DNA of 64,000 bases, taken from NCBI GenBank assembly GCA_030427885.1, contig JAUICM010000003.1, forward strand, positions 1-64,000, written 5' to 3'. Shown here piece after piece: positions 53,973 to 63,161 of this stretch (position 1 is the stretch's first letter; every line of letters begins with the position of its first letter). The DNA comes from Rhodothermia bacterium (GTDB lineage Bacteria; Bacteroidota; Rhodothermia; Balneolales; Balneolaceae). The translations under genes and the position numbers were made by a program. The notes under the pieces are model-generated. The model worked only from the letters and a program-made list of their open reading frames with translations. It was not told the DNA's origin and ran no database searches.

Positions 53973-53989
53973 TGTGATTTCACAAAACA

Positions 53990-54023
53990 AAAAAGCCCCG
54001 GCATATTAAATGCAGGGGCTTTT
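53990..54023. terminator. Bidirectional terminator between the GH97 and PpiC-like genes
   Basis: AAAAGCCCC / GGGGCTTTT (53991-53999, 54015-54023) with a 15-base loop, giving T-runs on both strands. It separates the convergent glycosidase operon and surface cassette. Confidence 0.85.
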
Positions 54024-54040
54024 CTATAAGCAATAAATAG

Positions 54041-55780
54041 TTATTCAGATCGCTTTTTATAAAGCTCATAGATACTATTAAATAATGCTGTATCCACATT
54101 GATCTCTAAATCTTCCCTGATACTTGAGATCTCAGTATTGATATGATTGAAAACTTTATATCTAAGTTTTAGTTCAGACTGATCTGTGTTCTTATCGATT
54201 TCCGTGATCTTCCTATCTGTTACCATCAATACCATCCAGCCATCAGATGAATGTGCAACAACGGGGATATCGATCAAACCATCTCTGACAAGAGAATAAT
54301 CTGAATCTGTAGATAATATAATTTCATCACTGAATTCCCGAAAACTATCATAGCTTTCAGGAATTCCTTTATTCTCAATATCCCCTTTAATTTCAATAGC
54401 CTCATCCATTGAAGAAGCTGGTATTTTCCAGTAACTGGCGATCATCTGAAAATCACGATTTCTAACCAACCGGTCTCTGAATGAAGACGGAACAATTACA
54501 TCGCTTGTATCTTCTAGTGCTTCTCTGGTCAACTCATATTGATAAAGCTCTGAAAGCTTTTCATAGCCTCTTTGTCTTACTTTCTTCTCAACTCTTGGAT
54601 CAGATTCATAGCCTTTTTCCTTACCAATCTTATAGAGAACCTCATTTCTCAATGCTCTTCCAATTGAAGCCCCCGTCCTCTTTTTTGATTCCTCGAATGA
54701 TAAATATGGTAACCATCTCAGATAATCATCAAAAGTAAATTCCTGACGTTCTCCTCCAAGCACGTAGGTTCCCAGAACGGCATCATTATCAAAAGCAGCC
54801 CTGAGTTCGTCAAGATTTGAACTTCTCCAGCCATCATTTTGCAATTCATTCGACAGATCATTTTCGTTCTGTATCTCAGGTTGATTTACTCCCTTGATCG
54901 CTTCCATCAATTCAAGCACTTTTTCGCGATCTACTTCAACTAATAATGATCCCATCAGATCACGTATATAGTCGTTTGAAACCAGCTCCTGATTACGTAA
55001 CCTTACCTGGCTTCTGATGCCCTGCTTTCGATACTGGTAATCATCCTCTGCCAGCATTGCCGGAAATTCAATGAACTCTACATATATAATATGATAACCA
55101 AACATGGTTCGTACAGGTTTAGTGAAGTCTCCCTGATTTGTTGAATAGGCAGCTTCTGCAAAAGCATCATCAACACCGAAATAACTAACCGGACCTAAAT
55201 ATCCTGCAGAAGAGTCATATTTTTCGGTTTTATAGAAGTCATTGGCTACATCAATAAAATCCTCACCCGCTTTAAGTCTTCTGTAAGGTTCCTGAAGATC
55301 CTGTTCATTTTTGGAATATAGATGCCTTACATAAACCGAACGTTTAGACTTAGCATATGCAAGCCTCATTTGTTCATCTGTTGGAGGTTCTAGCAACTCT
55401 TCCATCTCGTCAACGAAGTAAACATCTACAGTAGACTTCATTCGCTGAAAATTTAAAGCAGCCTGATATACACTGTTATCTGTTAATCCCTCGTCCGCTG
55501 CATCTATAGCCATTGCAAGTTTATCGATCATCTGATTGAGAAATGCGTAGCGTTCATTTCTGCTATCATTTCTGCCTGTTCTGATCAGATAGTTCACATA
55601 AGCCACTTCAAAATCATAAGTAGTGACTTCAATGTCGTTTACAGAAAAGAGTAATTTATCCTGATCGGGAGTTTCTTTGGTACAGTTAGCTGAAGTAATC
55701 AGCAGGATGAATAGTAAATAAAAAAAGAATGGCTGCTTTAGAACAAAGCAGCCATTCTTGCACAATAAAGTTTTTAACAT
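54041..55780 (-). CDS. Parvulin-type peptidyl-prolyl isomerase lipoprotein
   Basis: 579 residues. The N-terminus has Lys-rich and hydrophobic parts ending in LLITSANC (Cys about residue 33), a lipoprotein signal that is longer than usual. A SurA-like helical start (LLFSVNDIEVTTYDFEVAYV) precedes a parvulin domain (about 145-240: VRHLYSKNEQDLQEPYRRLK, AGYLGPVSYFGVDDAFAEAAY, TMFGYHIIYVE). A long helical C-terminal half follows. It should help fold proteins bound for the outer membrane. The ATG abuts the PorV-like stop (TAAATG). A strong intrinsic terminator lies within codons 7-21, so expression is probably coupled to or limited by the upstream gene. Confidence 0.88.
   Translation of the reverse strand: MLKTLLCKNGCFVLKQPFFFYLLFILLITSANCTKETPDQDKLLFSVNDIEVTTYDFEVAYVNYLIRTGRNDSRNERYAFLNQMIDKLAMAIDAADEGLTDNSVYQAALNFQRMKSTVDVYFVDEMEELLEPPTDEQMRLAYAKSKRSVYVRHLYSKNEQDLQEPYRRLKAGEDFIDVANDFYKTEKYDSSAGYLGPVSYFGVDDAFAEAAYSTNQGDFTKPVRTMFGYHIIYVEFIEFPAMLAEDDYQYRKQGIRSQVRLRNQELVSNDYIRDLMGSLLVEVDREKVLELMEAIKGVNQPEIQNENDLSNELQNDGWRSSNLDELRAAFDNDAVLGTYVLGGERQEFTFDDYLRWLPYLSFEESKKRTGASIGRALRNEVLYKIGKEKGYESDPRVEKKVRQRGYEKLSELYQYELTREALEDTSDVIVPSSFRDRLVRNRDFQMIASYWKIPASSMDEAIEIKGDIENKGIPESYDSFREFSDEIILSTDSDYSLVRDGLIDIPVVAHSSDGWMVLMVTDRKITEIDKNTDQSELKLRYKVFNHINTEISSIREDLEINVDTALFNSIYELYKKRSE
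55719..55759 (-). terminator. Intrinsic terminator embedded in the 5' coding end of the parvulin gene
   Basis: Perfect 15-bp stem AAGAATGGCTGCTTT / AAAGCAGCCATTCTT (55725-55739, 55745-55759) with a 5-base loop. On the minus strand it runs into CTTTTTTTATTT. It begins 22 bp after the PorV-like stop. It is fully inside the parvulin gene's first codons if the ATG at 55780 is used. Confidence 0.9.
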
Positions 55781-56836
55781 TTAGAAATAGAGCTTTAAAT
55801 CAACCAGTGTTGTTTGTCCTAAATAATTGAATGGAACTTGAGCAAAATCCACTCCAATTGCCACACCTGATGAAGTTTTTAATGTAAAACCTGCTCCATA
55901 GGTAACATGGGAATCAACCTTATCACCAAGTAACAAATCTTTATAACCACCACGAACATGGAACTTCACAGTATTGGTTATATAACTCAGCTGAGATCCT
56001 GAATCTATGTTAAGATCGTTATCATTTGTTTGTTGAGCATCAGACAAGATCAACCATTCCAGGTTTTCTGTTTTAATAACCGGCAATGAGATCCCAAATC
56101 GAAATGACAAAGGAAGATCCCATTGATCCAGATAGATTCTTGCCGGAATATCATCGTTATTTCCTTCACTGGTTGGATCAATATCCACGAAGTGCTCAGA
56201 GTTGATCCCGTCCATCTGCATTTTACCGCCGAAGTTTGAGATCGAAGCTCCGATTCTTAATCCATTCAGATATTGTGTTTTCAGAATAAATCCGAAATCA
56301 AAAGCGAAGGTTTCCGCGGTCATATCATAGATCTTCTGCTGAACGATTTTTGCAGTTCCACCGAAGTGGAATGACTCTGTTAGATTCTGAGAGTATGTCA
56401 ATCCTATACTCAGGTCATGTGAGCCAAAAGTAGCTCCCGTTCCTTCCGGGTTTTCAACAGTACGAACATCCTGCCTGCCGTAATCAACAAAATTGACTCC
56501 GAATCCGAATCTTTTCTTACCGGTGTCGCCAATTGGAAAAACCAGCCCTGATCCGTAGGCATAAACATCAGCAAAGAGTTTATTACCACTAAAAAATCCA
56601 GAGCTTCTGGTGCTACCCTCGTTTTCCAGAGAGATTGCTGCAGGGTTCCAGAATAAAGCTTCTGCACCTGAGCCATTAACCGTATTTGCGTGCCCCAGTG
56701 CAGACGCCTTTGCTCCAACCCCCATGGTGAGGAATGGAGCAGCAGTAGTACCTACCCTGCTTTGAGCATACAGATCTGAGATACCCAACAAAACGATGAG
56801 TTGTAAAAGTATTGTTATTCTTTTCATGCTTTTCAT
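55781..56836 (-). CDS. PorV/PorQ-family outer-membrane barrel protein
   Basis: 351 residues with a signal peptide (MKSMKRITILLQLIVLLG, ends LYAQ; an ATG at 56827 gives a shorter form). The mature start TAAPFLTMGVGAKASALGHA and EALFWNPAAISLEN is the signature of PorV/PorQ (UPF0164-like) proteins. Many amphipathic strands follow, and the chain ends TTLVDLKLYF with a terminal aromatic residue as in outer-membrane barrels. In type IX secretion PorV shuttles substrates to the sortase. A copy placed beside sorting-tail proteins suggests a dedicated role. The parvulin gene follows with no gap. Confidence 0.9.
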   Translation of the reverse strand: MKSMKRITILLQLIVLLGISDLYAQSRVGTTAAPFLTMGVGAKASALGHANTVNGSGAEALFWNPAAISLENEGSTRSSGFFSGNKLFADVYAYGSGLVFPIGDTGKKRFGFGVNFVDYGRQDVRTVENPEGTGATFGSHDLSIGLTYSQNLTESFHFGGTAKIVQQKIYDMTAETFAFDFGFILKTQYLNGLRIGASISNFGGKMQMDGINSEHFVDIDPTSEGNNDDIPARIYLDQWDLPLSFRFGISLPVIKTENLEWLILSDAQQTNDNDLNIDSGSQLSYITNTVKFHVRGGYKDLLLGDKVDSHVTYGAGFTLKTSSGVAIGVDFAQVPFNYLGQTTLVDLKLYF

Positions 56837-56866: not shown

Positions 56867-59800
56867 CTATTTGACTACCGCAAATTTATCTACATACTCA
56901 CCAATACCTTCGGCAGATACATGGTAGAAGTAGACACCGTATGCGACGTCTTCGTTGTTGTTTGTTCTCAGATCCCAGGAAGTAGAACCCTCATTAAATT
57001 CGCCCGAGTGTTCGATGGTTTTAACAAGTTCACCCCTGATATTGAAAATCCTGATGGTACATTTTCTTGGCAGGTTAAAGAAACTGATCTTCCTTTCGCC
57101 CCTACCAATAGAATTTGAAATCTTTTCCCAGGATGCAGCACCAACATACGGGTTCGGAGCTACATATATATTTTCAAGTTCACTTTTGGCCAGATCGTCA
57201 TCGATAAACCCTTTTCTTACTCCAAATTCGAAGTAATCATCACTACCAAAGGCACGTGATGTAGAGATTACAATCTTATCTCCGGGAGATGGTGCAATGT
57301 TATCAGGCCCTGCATCAATAGCTATAACAAAGCGATATACGATCCTGCCTAATGAATCTTCTTCAGATACGATCAATTGATCACCATCACTGATATCTTC
57401 ACTTTCGTCATTATCGACCACTAAGATCTCTGCTGGAGCGCCTGTAGTAGAATTCTTAGCAAACAGAGGTATCTCAATTCTTGAGAAACCACCACCAAGA
57501 ACTCTCGGAGGTTTGTACAAACTATCAGCAGGATTTACGAACAGCAATTCGTAATCACTATCTGTAGCCCGGAAACCATTTGAGGATCCATCTCTTTGTT
57601 CATCAATTTCTATTTCCCAATCAGTACTCAATCCATCAAGTTCAGTCGGGTCATAGTTGAACAATTCATTCTCAGTCCCCTGATTGGAAACCCATCCTGA
57701 TTTGTTCTCCAGTAGCTCTCCTGGTTCAGAGTTGGTAAGATTAACTGTGAAGCCATTAATTACAGAAGTAGAGGTAGCGAATGGTGACATTCCTACAACT
57801 GTTCTGTTCTGGGTCAGTTCTTTAATTCTGTAACCTGTTGTTACACGATAATCAGCTACAACAGAATTTGAATCTGTAAACTCAATTCTATATAGATACG
57901 AGTCTTCCAACTCTGATTCTACCACTACACTAACAGAAGCAGAACCGGTACCAGTACCACCTGTTACAGTGCTCAAATCGATAGTGGCTCCACCATCCAC
58001 ATAACCTGCTGGTGTGGTTACCGGAACAACCGCTGCAGTATTAATAGAAGTACCCGTCAGGTTACCCTGCAAATCAACAGAAACCCTGAATGTATTTTCC
58101 TGAGGATCAATTCCGGGTGCATCTGAGCCTTCTTCTGCAGGTAGGCCTCGGTCATATGCTACAATTGCGTAGTAATAGGTTTTACCATTTACCACATCAT
58201 TATCAACATAATGGAATGCTAAACCTGTATTAGAGCCAAGATCGTATACTGCTTCGCCCTCAAGGATGGTTCTCATACCACTAATGTCATTATCAAGATC
58301 CCATCTGGCTATTGGCTTATAGAATGTTGGTGTTCCATTTACATCAGTAATAGTTCTGGCATCTGTAAACAGGTTATTCGTGCCTTTATAGAGTTTGTAA
58401 CCCTCAAAGTCGAAGTCCTGAAGGAAGTTGTCATAACTTCGAACTGACAAAGTATCCCAGGAAAGAACTACCTGCTTGTCACCAGTAACTGCTGTTAATG
58501 TTGGGACAATTGGTGGCTGAGCAAATTTATAATCAGCATTATAAATATTCTGAACTGTTCTTCGGTTTTTGAAGAAGTCTTGTTCATCATTTCCAAATAT
58601 CCATGCTGTTGAGAAGAAATCAGTAGATTTACCACCTAACTGATCTTCCGGATTTAGCTCAACCTGACCCGACATGAATAATAAGAATGGCTCATCATTG
58701 GCAACAGGATCACTTGGAGGTATTGTACCAAGAGGGAATTCACTAATTCTGATTCTGTTGAATAACCAGGTATCATCTCTAAGGTTATTACCACTTTCAT
58801 AAAATGGTCGGGTATTAAGGTCAAAACCTCTCAAACCGATCTGATCAGATTCGTCTACATCAAGATCGTTATAGTTTGGTTCACCCTGAGTTGGAATTCC
58901 GTCTCCTTCCCCTTCATCCGGGCCCGGGTAATTCAGATCAAAAAGACCTAAACCATCACGACCCACGTCATTATTGAGAACTTCACCTGGATCAAGAGTT
59001 CCGTTGTTATTTGCGTCATCAAATCCAACCCAGTCCATATTCTCATCGGTTGTGTACCAAACACCTTCTTTGTAAGCAGGACGATCGACGATATCACTGT
59101 AATAGCTTTCAAAGTCAGCTACATTGTAATTGTTTTGAACAAAATTCTGGATAGCTATTTCGGAATCCAGTCTCATATAATTTTCATCGAAACGAGACTC
59201 ATCTGTAATACCATCCTGATCATCATCCTGATTGTTTCTGTCGTTTGCAGGTGATTCAAGGAATGCAAAACCGGTATAACCCAATTCATACTGAGCACCA
59301 CCATTGGTAGGTGTCCCTAAACCATCGGAATCCCATCCATATACAACGTCAAGAATTGGGTCGTAACTCGCATTGTCATCATCCTCATCTTGTCCCAAAC
59401 CATAATCCACGATTTGAACAAAATAAAGACGGTCGTGATCTTCATCTCCTTTATTGGTAATTCGATAGATCAGGAACATAGTATCCTCAGCAAGAATATT
59501 TGCCCATTGGTAAATACGAACCTGAGTCTGCATACCGAATCCACCCATTAATGAATCTGTTTCCGGACTTGGATAATAAACACCCAATGCACTATGTGGA
59601 CCCTCTGTTTCGAGATCAAAACCATATTCCATATCGGAAAAATCATCCATTACATAAAATGATTCCTGATCAGCATTCGCAAATTTACCATCACGACCAT
59701 CCCAAAAACCACACCAGCCCGGATCGCCTGGTTCAAACCAACGATCAGGCCAGCAATCAGGCCATGAAGTAGGATCATTTGATTTAGCCGGAATAGGAGT

Positions 59801-60292
59801 CAGAGCATCGGTAATTGGAGCTCTTCTTAATGGGTTGTTAAAACCCGGTAGAGGCAACCATCCCCAAACATCACCAGAATAAGGACTGGTTCTTACACCT
59901 GCATCCCTATAGTTGATCATAACCGGGTTCAGTGTCGTATCCGGAATTACATAGGTTCTTTTCCATTCCACATAATCAGCATAGCTGCTGAATCTGGAAC
60001 CGTCAGCCCCATCAACATAACCAGCTACTACCACGCCTACACCGTCAATGTGGCGTCCCCCAATATTCCGAGGCCATACTCCCCAGGGAATATCTCCCCA
60101 ACGAGCCAACTCTCCGTGGTTTCTGTAGTTAGTTTCAATGAGGTTACCATCCATGACCCCTCTTGCGACAGAGTTTAATGCTCCTCTGTACACAACTCCA
60201 TTATATTCATCAGGGATCTGTGCTTGTGCATTACCTGCAGCCGCTAGTAAGAAGCATACCGCTAACAGGCCTAGTCTTGTTTTAGTTTGCAT
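56867..60292 (-). CDS. Very large secreted surface protein with C-terminal sorting/FlgD-like tail
   Basis: 1141 residues with a signal peptide (MQTKTRLGLLAVCFLLAAAG, ends AQAQ). The middle is Asp/Asn-rich with calcium-type loops such as DDANNNGTLDPGE. Around residue 610 are fibronectin-III-like strands (VLSWDTLSVRSYDN, YYYAIVAYDRG). The C-terminus has the FlgD/type IX-tail look: ENIYVAPNPYVG, then IRIFNIRGELVKTIEHSG, ending VDKFAVVK. It lacks the exact QNYPNPFNP motif. It sits between a TonB-dependent receptor and a PorV-like gene, so it is likely a surface partner of the receptor. Function unknown. Confidence 0.88.
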   Translation of the reverse strand: MQTKTRLGLLAVCFLLAAAGNAQAQIPDEYNGVVYRGALNSVARGVMDGNLIETNYRNHGELARWGDIPWGVWPRNIGGRHIDGVGVVVAGYVDGADGSRFSSYADYVEWKRTYVIPDTTLNPVMINYRDAGVRTSPYSGDVWGWLPLPGFNNPLRRAPITDALTPIPAKSNDPTSWPDCWPDRWFEPGDPGWCGFWDGRDGKFANADQESFYVMDDFSDMEYGFDLETEGPHSALGVYYPSPETDSLMGGFGMQTQVRIYQWANILAEDTMFLIYRITNKGDEDHDRLYFVQIVDYGLGQDEDDDNASYDPILDVVYGWDSDGLGTPTNGGAQYELGYTGFAFLESPANDRNNQDDDQDGITDESRFDENYMRLDSEIAIQNFVQNNYNVADFESYYSDIVDRPAYKEGVWYTTDENMDWVGFDDANNNGTLDPGEVLNNDVGRDGLGLFDLNYPGPDEGEGDGIPTQGEPNYNDLDVDESDQIGLRGFDLNTRPFYESGNNLRDDTWLFNRIRISEFPLGTIPPSDPVANDEPFLLFMSGQVELNPEDQLGGKSTDFFSTAWIFGNDEQDFFKNRRTVQNIYNADYKFAQPPIVPTLTAVTGDKQVVLSWDTLSVRSYDNFLQDFDFEGYKLYKGTNNLFTDARTITDVNGTPTFYKPIARWDLDNDISGMRTILEGEAVYDLGSNTGLAFHYVDNDVVNGKTYYYAIVAYDRGLPAEEGSDAPGIDPQENTFRVSVDLQGNLTGTSINTAAVVPVTTPAGYVDGGATIDLSTVTGGTGTGSASVSVVVESELEDSYLYRIEFTDSNSVVADYRVTTGYRIKELTQNRTVVGMSPFATSTSVINGFTVNLTNSEPGELLENKSGWVSNQGTENELFNYDPTELDGLSTDWEIEIDEQRDGSSNGFRATDSDYELLFVNPADSLYKPPRVLGGGFSRIEIPLFAKNSTTGAPAEILVVDNDESEDISDGDQLIVSEEDSLGRIVYRFVIAIDAGPDNIAPSPGDKIVISTSRAFGSDDYFEFGVRKGFIDDDLAKSELENIYVAPNPYVGAASWEKISNSIGRGERKISFFNLPRKCTIRIFNIRGELVKTIEHSGEFNEGSTSWDLRTNNNEDVAYGVYFYHVSAEGIGEYVDKFAVVK

Positions 60293-60334: not shown

Positions 60335-63118
60335 TTAGAATTTTAAGCTTAATCCAACCTTTATTGTTCTCGGAGGACCTAACATACTTTCATTCAGATA
60401 CCACTCAGAATATGAATTCAGACCGCCAGGTATTGTACCTTGTCGAAGAGTACGTGCCAGCTCTGTAGATTCAGTTGCAAGTCCGGTATCACTGAATACA
60501 CTCCAGTGAGGAGCGCTGTCAAAGATATTATCTACCTGTAGGAACAACTGAATGTCATAGGTAAGGAATCCAGGTTTGTAATAAACCCGAGCATCCGAGT
60601 TAAACCAAATAGGTTTGTCCTGATTATTTGGAACATAAGACTGAACAAAGTTTCGCTCAGAAGTATAAGGGGTTCCTGTCTGTAGGCTGTTTATTGTTGA
60701 AATGGTAAAACCAATATTTGTTTTCCATGTGATAGTGTTATTCAACACATTTCTTCTATCCCAGTTCAGACGGTTGATCTTGATAATAGGATCAAGGCCA
60801 CTGGTTACCCTGTTAAAAGTATCCTGAGGGTTTGAAGCTGAACCACTTGCAAACTGAAGAGTATAATCGATCGTCCAGGTTATCGGACCATCTCCTCGTT
60901 GATAGAGGGAAAGAGTTCCACCCTTTACAGTTCCATAATCCAGATTCACATTTCTTGAAATATACCGTCCGTCAAAATTTCTGTATACCTCAGTACCAGC
61001 CAGGTTTCTGATATCTTTAGAGAATAAGGTCAGATCCATACCCAAGGTTTCTGTCAAACCTTGTTGAAGCCCTACCTCAAATGACAATGTTCTTTCAGCT
61101 TTCAGAGACGCGTTACCAAACTGAATGCTTGTTGACTGAGGGTTATCCTCAAAGTCGTTATTCGCATATAGTAGGTTCAACTGAGGGGTCTGGAAGAACA
61201 AACCTGCCGAAAATCTCATTACACCTGTTTCAGATATAGGAAATGCAATACCCAATCGAGGACTTATCTGAAATGAATTATCTGCTGCTTTCCTGTTCGA
61301 AATGAATACGGAATCAGAAGCAGGTCTTGAAGGATCAAGAATTTCATCTTTAGGGCCCTGAGAAAGATCTACAGGAACTACAAAATCCGGCTCGAAGTAA
61401 TCAAAACGAAGACCTGCATTCACGATAAGATCCTCAAACTCAAGTTTAACCTGAGAATAACCGGCAGCCTCATAAGGACTCACATCCAGCGCTGAGTTAT
61501 TAAATGGGTTATCTGATCGTATTGGTTCTCCGAAGGCATTTGTTGTAATACCAAATGACTCATTGTCTATATTGTGAAGACGTCCTGAAAGACCCGCCTT
61601 GAATAGAACAATGTTGTTAATCTGAGAAGTAAAATCAGCCACTATAGTATGTGTTGTGGTGATATTTTCAGAAGAATTCAGGTAGTTACCACCCATATTG
61701 AAGGCTGAAGCACCCTGCTGACTCGATTGATCCGGACCCACATAACGTGGATCAAGTATCGTTGCTGAAGCATCATTATATAGTTTGGACTCACCCTGAT
61801 CTCTCAGATAACTATACGATAAGTTCGCAAAGGCATTTGCTCCAATTGAATATCGAATCCCAAGAATATGATTCTGAGACAGATTATAATAGTTATTTAT
61901 GCCATCAGGGTTGTATTTATATGAATGGTCATAATTCGAACCATCATTCTTTTGAAGAAAGATGTTATAATCTAGCTTTAGGTCACTATTCACCTGATAA
62001 ACAAGTGAAGAGTTCAATGAATATCTGGTGTGGCGATTCAGCTCCTGATAATCCCCACTTCCTGTTGACTCAAGGATCCAGTTATCAGTTTCAGCACCAC
62101 CAGATACTCCACTTTGAATACCATTATCCGTTTGCGTGAACTGCTGATCTGATGGTTTGAACAGATCACGACCGATCAGATAACCAGGTTCATTCAGATA
62201 TCTGATAGTTGCTTGTATACCCAGCTTGTCTTTTATGATAGGACCACCAATTGAAAACTGAAGGTCACGATTAGCAAACTTAGAAGATGCTTTCGTATAA
62301 CTTACTTTCTCCTGCGAGAAATCATCATAGCTAAGAAACGAACCAGCATCGGTATCTCTTGATACGAATTCAAGTTCTCTGTTACTAACGATGGTTCCAC
62401 TATACGCTAACATATTTGCGGACCACTTTGGTGATACACCTTTGGTCACAATATTTACAACACCACTCATAGCCTGGCCATATTCAGCGTTAAATACACC
62501 ACTGATAACCTCCAGACTGGAGACCATGTTCTGCTCTACTTCAAATGCAGCATTATTATTGTATGCATTGTTGATCGGCACTCCATTTACGAGATAAGCA
62601 ACCTCACCGGTTCTACCTCCTCTAAAGTGACCATCAACAACACCTGCTTGTTGGTTAACAGCTTCATTTACGCTGACCACAGGGAGATTTTCAAGTTGAT
62701 CAGAACTTACATAGGCTGTAGTAGTTGTTCTGTCTTTTTCTACAATTGGACGTTCCGCGGTAACAACAATTTCCTGACCTGCGATCACTTCTTCCTGAAG
62801 TGTAGCATTCACTTCAGTGGTTTTATCTACTATAACTTTCACTTTTTCTACCTTGGTAGTAGCAAAACCAATATATCTGAACACAACGGTGTATTCACCG
62901 GGTTCCAGATTTACAAGGCTGTAGTTTCCATCAACATCAGTAGTAGTACCTTTTTGAGTTCCATCTATGAATACCTGAACACCTGCGAGAGGCTCACCTG
63001 ATTCATCGACAACTTTACCTGCTATTTTACCTTTTGTACCGGCAAATACTAAGCTGGTAGAAATCAAAAAAGCGATTACAAATAATATCGCGTGCTTTAA
63101 TGACGGGAGTTTCTTCAT
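60335..63118 (-). CDS. TonB-dependent outer-membrane receptor with CarboxypepD-reg-like domain
   Basis: 927 residues: signal peptide (ends near LVFAG), a carboxypeptidase-regulatory-like domain (about 30-105: GKIAGKVVDESGEPLAGVQV, DVDGNYSLVNLEPGEYTV), a plug (about 130-235: EIVVTAERPIVEKDRT, AYLVNGVPINNAYN, VFNAEYGQAMSGVVNIVTKG) and a 22-strand-type barrel ending IKVGLSLKF. This is the general layout of SusC-like and related importers, but no SusD gene accompanies it. It takes up a substrate using TonB energy. The substrate is unknown. Probably co-transcribed with its flanking surface genes. Confidence 0.94.
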   Translation of the reverse strand: MKKLPSLKHAILFVIAFLISTSLVFAGTKGKIAGKVVDESGEPLAGVQVFIDGTQKGTTTDVDGNYSLVNLEPGEYTVVFRYIGFATTKVEKVKVIVDKTTEVNATLQEEVIAGQEIVVTAERPIVEKDRTTTTAYVSSDQLENLPVVSVNEAVNQQAGVVDGHFRGGRTGEVAYLVNGVPINNAYNNNAAFEVEQNMVSSLEVISGVFNAEYGQAMSGVVNIVTKGVSPKWSANMLAYSGTIVSNRELEFVSRDTDAGSFLSYDDFSQEKVSYTKASSKFANRDLQFSIGGPIIKDKLGIQATIRYLNEPGYLIGRDLFKPSDQQFTQTDNGIQSGVSGGAETDNWILESTGSGDYQELNRHTRYSLNSSLVYQVNSDLKLDYNIFLQKNDGSNYDHSYKYNPDGINNYYNLSQNHILGIRYSIGANAFANLSYSYLRDQGESKLYNDASATILDPRYVGPDQSSQQGASAFNMGGNYLNSSENITTTHTIVADFTSQINNIVLFKAGLSGRLHNIDNESFGITTNAFGEPIRSDNPFNNSALDVSPYEAAGYSQVKLEFEDLIVNAGLRFDYFEPDFVVPVDLSQGPKDEILDPSRPASDSVFISNRKAADNSFQISPRLGIAFPISETGVMRFSAGLFFQTPQLNLLYANNDFEDNPQSTSIQFGNASLKAERTLSFEVGLQQGLTETLGMDLTLFSKDIRNLAGTEVYRNFDGRYISRNVNLDYGTVKGGTLSLYQRGDGPITWTIDYTLQFASGSASNPQDTFNRVTSGLDPIIKINRLNWDRRNVLNNTITWKTNIGFTISTINSLQTGTPYTSERNFVQSYVPNNQDKPIWFNSDARVYYKPGFLTYDIQLFLQVDNIFDSAPHWSVFSDTGLATESTELARTLRQGTIPGGLNSYSEWYLNESMLGPPRTIKVGLSLKF

Positions 63119-63135: not shown

Positions 63136-63161
63136 CGGGCACAGCTCGAATGCTGTGCCCG
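63136..63161 (-). terminator. Intercistronic hairpin between the sorting-tail gene and the receptor gene
   Basis: Perfect 10-bp stem CGGGCACAGC / GCTGTGCCCG with a 6-base loop (63136-63145, 63152-63161). On the minus strand it is followed by TTTAAATTT, an imperfect T tract. It could partly terminate transcription or protect the upstream message. Confidence 0.55.

Follow-up and report, generated by a model that had tools for sequence, protein, structure and literature searches.

Gene organization at the locus

The window analyzed here is a 64,000-nucleotide stretch of a contig from a Rhodothermia bacterium. It contains a series of closely spaced genes ending in a lipoprotein gene, the first codons of which include a hairpin followed by a U tract. 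The genes and features, all on the minus strand, are as follows.

60335..63118, minus strand: TonB-dependent-receptor-like protein, 927 aa (assigned from sequence only); the operon presumably begins with this gene
56867..60292, minus strand: large secreted protein with a C-terminal sorting-type end, 1141 aa (weak PorZ C-terminal match; position before PorV conserved)
55781..56836, minus strand: PorV/PorQ-family outer-membrane protein, 351 aa (NCBIfam NF033709, 140.9 bits, cut-off 90)
54041..55780, minus strand: PpiC/parvulin-type peptidyl-prolyl isomerase lipoprotein, 579 aa (Pfam PF00639, 1.6e-10)
55778..55780, minus strand: lipoprotein start ATG, directly after the PorV-like TAA (55781-55783); an abutting or overlapping start is kept in many orthologs
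55745..55759, minus strand: hairpin 5' arm, AAGAATGGCTGCTTT (sequence and RNA folding)
55740..55744, minus strand: hairpin loop, GTTCT (sequence and RNA folding)
55725..55739, minus strand: hairpin 3' arm, AAAGCAGCCATTCTT (sequence and RNA folding)
55715..55726, minus strand: U tract, TTTTTTTATTTA, its first two Ts also paired; encodes F19-F20-Y21 and L22, the start of the signal-peptide hydrophobic core
55682..55684, minus strand: codon of Cys33, putative lipidation site (LLITSANC), from the translation; a Cys lies near the equivalent place in aligned orthologs
53987..54027, minus strand: strong terminator 3' of the lipoprotein gene, which also serves the convergent gene (-24.9 kcal/mol, z = -5.58); the operon presumably ends here

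The genes for the secreted protein, the PorV-like protein and the lipoprotein are tightly spaced on one strand, and their order is conserved across relatives. The rotamase domain of the lipoprotein (PF00639) scored 42.3 bits against a cut-off of 21.7; its scores to the PpiC-like models of NCBIfam were under their cut-offs. A hydrophobic stretch precedes Cys33, with an Asn at -1 that is off the classic consensus, and several orthologs have SC or GC at this site. The PorV-like protein scored under the cut-offs of the PorV, PorQ and PorV2 equivalog models (T9SS models). In the loci checked, it travels with the large secreted protein and the parvulin lipoprotein, and the three possibly form a dedicated shuttle set.

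A strong terminator-like hairpin (CGGGCACAGC..GCTGTGCCCG, TTTAAATTT) also lies at 63136-63161 on the minus strand, just 5' of the TonB-receptor-like gene at the presumed operon start. The nearest Bacteroidota-type promoter motif (TANNTTTG) was found 645 nt upstream of the lipoprotein gene, with counts of this motif in the window at chance level. No Rfam cis-regulatory RNA family scored above its gathering score (L20_leader, for example, reached 26.9 against 58.7 bits), and a known riboswitch or leader was rejected on this basis.

A hairpin and U tract within the lipoprotein reading frame

On the minus strand, positions 55759-55725 read AAGAATGGCTGCTTT-GTTCT-AAAGCAGCCATTCTT, followed by TTTTTATTTA. 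The perfect 15-bp stem with a 5-base loop described in the first-pass annotation is borne out by the sequence, which forms 15 Watson-Crick pairs with no mismatch or, under an alternative calling, 16 pairs and a 3-nt loop. The annotated seven-T tail needs qualification: the run does contain seven Ts (55726-55720), of which two are shared with the stem and five lie outside it, followed by ATTTA. The stem begins, as annotated, at the 22nd base past the PorV-like TAA (21 intervening), and the hairpin occupies nucleotides 22-56 of the lipoprotein gene, or codons 8-19. With the T run, which reaches codon 21, the element spans codons 8-21. The RNA is predicted to fold with an energy of -22.9 kcal/mol (z = -5.85), and none of 200 shuffled sequences was as stable. 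The element thus has the structure of an intrinsic terminator, a stable G+C-containing stem-loop with a U tract directly after it. A terminator for the plus strand is ruled out, as that side has no T run, and a repeat or mobile element is ruled out by its single copy in the genome, where the sole second match is its own inverted arm.

The coding frame was confirmed to remain open through the hairpin, and the TAAATG junction (55783-55778) is present as annotated. From the ATG, the frame reads ATG TTA AAA ACT TTA TTG TGC AAG AAT GGC TGC TTT GTT CTA AAG CAG CCA TTC TTT TTT TAT TTA. The suggestion that the foldase might start further in is unlikely; it was rejected for the window, in which no in-frame ATG, GTG or TTG follows the stem, and is further weakened by several relatives without the hairpin that still retain a start abutting or overlapping the PorV stop. 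Because there is no usable start past the hairpin, every lipoprotein mRNA, from any upstream promoter, must cross it, as all transcripts of a gene controlled by an attenuator cross the terminator. By position, therefore, the hairpin is an attenuator of the lipoprotein gene, if it terminates at all.

Strength of the hairpin against the genome background

We scored stem-loops with T tails over sampled stretches of the same genome totaling 864 kb, with ORFs called mechanically. The hairpin was the top-scoring terminator inside any same-strand ORF. Scores of at least 18 were reached by 26 intergenic and 2 in-ORF hairpins, the second of the latter being a mis-called gene start. The strength of the lipoprotein-gene hairpin falls within the class of the genome's intergenic terminators, and its 21-nt distance from the upstream stop codon is typical of ordinary terminators in this genome (mostly 19-28 nt). 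When 400 kb of genome G033 and 310 kb of genome G220, both from relatives, were scanned with the same method, the best or joint-best in-frame match lay in the same orthologous gene.

Synonymous recoding of the first 40 codons of the window's lipoprotein gene gave as good a terminator in 7 of 2,000 trials. Across the 17 genomes with a hairpin (described below), a match arose in 0-18 of 2,000 trials for 15 genomes and in 44 and 54 for the remaining two, although these results are not independent, as the genomes are related. The window's peptide itself favors pairing, with 12.9 of the 15 positions paired on average after recoding. The U tracts held 102 Ts against a synonymous expectation of 89.8, an excess that is partly ascertainment and biased upwards, since T-rich tails were required in the scan.

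Conservation with turnover of the stem

Orthologs were drawn from relatives, family, order and class, together with named genome records, giving 51 rows, and the records of relatives label the group as Balneolaceae; one locus (L010) was left out of scoring as its junction is masked by N. An in-frame terminator occupies the same signal-peptide codons in 17 of the 51 orthologs, in three families of the class (f1, f2 and f19). The question of whether orthologous loci conserve both stem and frame, raised in the first-pass annotation, was therefore answered positively.

Stem, T tract and open frame occur together in 10 genomes of the window's family. Eight of these share a GGCTGC/GCAGCC core, and the other two carry a wholly different stem, GAATAGCCAC/GTGGCTATTC, in the same place. 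Further unrelated stems, in frame within the signal-peptide codons, were found in L019, from another family of the order, and in six f19 genomes of the class. This gives at least four unrelated stems: GGCTGC/GCAGCC, GAATAGCCAC/GTGGCTATTC, GGGCGGTG/CACCGCCC and GCGCCAGGCACC/GGTGCCTGGCGC. The signal peptide sequence is not conserved between clades, whereas a hairpin is. In the GGCTGC clade, pairing extends to 83% of cells, versus 24-61% in slid versions, and three pairs have changed on both sides, counted over eight related sequences. Codon choice favors stem pairing. Many relatives have textbook T-rich tails right after the stem (TTTTTTTT, TTTTTTATG); the U tracts are weak in about one quarter of the hairpin-bearing orthologs (e.g., GTTATTTG, CTTATTTA), and termination in these may consequently be poor.

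In the window's family, the lipoprotein ATG directly follows or overlaps the PorV stop codon, and the stem begins 22-28 nt downstream of that ATG; TAAATG or TGATG junctions are kept in family f1. The four f19 genomes with an ATG start have it 24-26 nt beyond the PorV stop, and their stems begin 18-20 nt after the ATG. G217 and G218 appear to start at a GTG beside the PorV stop, about 39 nt ahead of the stem. Measured from the PorV stop, the f19 stems lie at 39-44 nt. Overall, 15 of the 17 genomes with a hairpin have a stem that begins 18-28 nt after the ATG, both where the ATG touches the stop and where it stands 24-26 nt downstream.

Related elements were seen elsewhere. At locus L197 (G033:C1:3459914-3459939, minus strand), a start-proximal in-frame terminator (AGCTACGTCCTGGTTAGGACGTAGCT TTTTCTATTT) lies among the opening codons of a BirA-like gene, 6 nt downstream of the preceding gene, with a U tract encoding FFYF, which suggests that the arrangement may be wider in the window's family. 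At locus L209 (G033:C1:3696534-3696562, plus strand), a terminator-like hairpin (CGGAATTCCTTT..AAGGGAATTCCG TTTCTATTTT) lies 32 nt into a phospholipase-D-like reading frame. Where relatives carry the terminator, the first lipoprotein codons of L011 (G022) hold a perfect palindrome, CCCGAACAATTGTTCGGG, that lacks a T tail and may be a decayed or replaced element.

Probable gain and loss of the hairpin

On the 51-row tree, hairpin presence requires at least five changes, a count that depends on the scoring threshold; with scores of 7-11, the hairpins in G214, G216 and G221 were judged too weak and entered as absent. Every basal branch of the window's close clade has the hairpin. One derived group of nine relatives (genera g5, g16 and g21) lacks it, and several members of that group also have the start moved off the PorV stop. 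Its absence from these nine close relatives indicates that the hairpin is dispensable. The first-pass annotation had named orthologs that keep the frame and lose the stem as evidence against a dual-purpose sequence. Such orthologs do occur, but in the close clade they are confined to this one derived group, and the rest belong to more distant lineages. The tree is most simply read as repeated gain with one loss in the derived clade, and the hairpins outside the close clade look like separate gains. A deep origin with many losses is a possible alternative.

The hairpin as a probable internal attenuator

We conclude that the hairpin is probably a real, selected intrinsic terminator that serves as an internal attenuator of the conserved operon encoding the secreted protein, the PorV-family barrel and the PpiC lipoprotein. 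Most RNA polymerases would stop at the hairpin, leaving a clean 3' end for the upstream genes, and a minority would read through to the final terminator of the operon, providing a small supply of the foldase lipoprotein. Such partial termination would keep the foldase below the barrel and the secreted partner. With the structure, position, open frame, lack of a usable start past the hairpin and conservation with stem turnover observed, we infer that termination occurs in the cell, that it is partial and that stoichiometry is its purpose. Two features would explain its placement inside the coding sequence: the start of the lipoprotein is kept next to the PorV stop, and the U tract can serve at the same time as Phe/Leu codons of the hydrophobic core, with the stem encodable by the n-region, whose sequence is poorly conserved. 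One cost is that ribosomes already started on the lipoprotein ORF would reach the end of a terminated transcript with no stop codon; a tmRNA gene was found in the genome.

The dual use of the sequence, as lipoprotein code and as terminator, is strongly supported. The combination kept in the 10 genomes of the family recurs in two other families, and the lipoprotein must be translated through the hairpin from the abutting ATG, in line with the dual-purpose sequence first proposed. As a secondary effect, ribosomes translating the end of PorV or initiating at the new start may modulate the fraction of polymerases that read through.

A stricter version, also from the first-pass annotation, makes the hairpin a translation-gated switch: a ribosome ending PorV and reinitiating at the abutting ATG would cover the hairpin and allow read-through, and transcription would stop when PorV is not translated, tying the foldase to translation of the barrel. 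This switch is possible but unproven, and we consider it unlikely. A ribosome finishing an upstream gene in Escherichia coli may repress a terminator 17-28 nt away (up to about 27 nt), or may not, depending on the sequence (PMC4824070). The window's 21 nt from the PorV stop is inside this range, and the pyrBI operon offers a terminator within a translated leader. The junctions kept in f1 and the steady distance from ATG to stem, wherever the ATG stands relative to the stop, are also consistent with the switch. However, the f19 stems lie outside the repression range, and the constant ATG distance is also explained by the need for the U tract to encode the hydrophobic core. In addition, when a terminator stood 30 bp downstream of a second ORF's AUG in E. 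coli, translation reduced its efficiency by only ~10% and most of the termination persisted (PMC4824070). A search upstream for an antiterminator with RNAalifold over eight orthologs recovered only the terminator hairpin and one 4-bp pairing in PorV codons; no conserved antiterminator structure was seen. A reinitiating ribosome that covers the hairpin is not supported as stated. It is similarly doubtful that this is a recurrently evolved 'signal-peptide terminator', in which a terminator doubles as the code for the export signal of an outer-envelope foldase and read-through is under the control of the ribosome that completed the preceding PorV-family protein. If true, foldase synthesis would report successful translation of its probable PorV-family partner.

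Start-proximal stems can lower translation, and the hairpin could instead act after transcription, by stabilizing the trimmed 3' end of the upstream mRNA or by slowing translation at the lipoprotein start, with the T-rich stretch a mere signal-peptide code. Phe and Leu codons do largely account for the T-richness, and some orthologs have weak U tracts. We nonetheless regard this role as quite improbable given the T-rich tail right after the stem in the window, the textbook tails of many relatives, a spacing from the PorV stop that matches ordinary terminators and a strength in the intergenic class. Chance, in which signal-peptide amino acids happen to encode a palindrome, finds some footing in the pairing favored by the window's peptide but is extremely unlikely, as a hairpin is conserved between clades and the peptide is not, several lineages have unrelated stems in the same codons, the element is the top or joint-top in-frame terminator in three separately sampled genomes, and synonymous recoding rarely matches the observed terminators.

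Significance and comparison with known systems

This locus offers a clear natural case of one DNA stretch apparently selected as protein code and transcription terminator together. The gene concerned is a full-length structural one, not a leader peptide, and the arrangement seems to have arisen more than once. The gene with and without the hairpin, and with several different stems, makes a ready comparative system for testing if transcription is coupled to translation in Balneolales and their relatives. For annotators, it is a caution that a terminator at such a site does not make the downstream start wrong.

In E. coli, a single terminator ends the frd operon and attenuates the next gene, ampC. 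The element described here similarly would both end the upstream genes and attenuate the next one, but the ampC terminator is in an untranslated leader, whereas here it is in coding sequence. The E. coli pyrBI attenuator (discussed in PMC4824070) shares an intrinsic terminator in a translated frame, where translation can in principle prevent the hairpin. In pyrBI, however, the translated frame encodes a leader peptide ahead of the regulated genes, and the mechanism uses UTP-sensitive pausing; at the present locus, the regulated structural gene itself supplies the frame, with no known sensor. The construct W48, in which tR2 stands 30 bp downstream of a second ORF's AUG (PMC4824070), shares the layout, with an upstream gene and a start codon followed by a terminator that lies no more than 100 bp into the next frame. 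It retains most termination, but it is engineered, with a short ORF, and neither natural nor conserved. ORF-internal 3' ends in E. coli (PMC7815308) are likewise premature ends within coding sequence, although scattered and mechanistically mixed, in contrast to a conserved start-proximal terminator of one gene. Finally, internal intrinsic terminators set operon stoichiometry in the ABC importer operons of cellulolytic Clostridia (PMC9045158). There, as we propose here, a terminator within the operon follows an abundantly needed gene and partial termination lowers the downstream gene. The clostridial stem-loops are intergenic, whereas the one described here lies inside translated codons and has a coding role in the downstream signal peptide.
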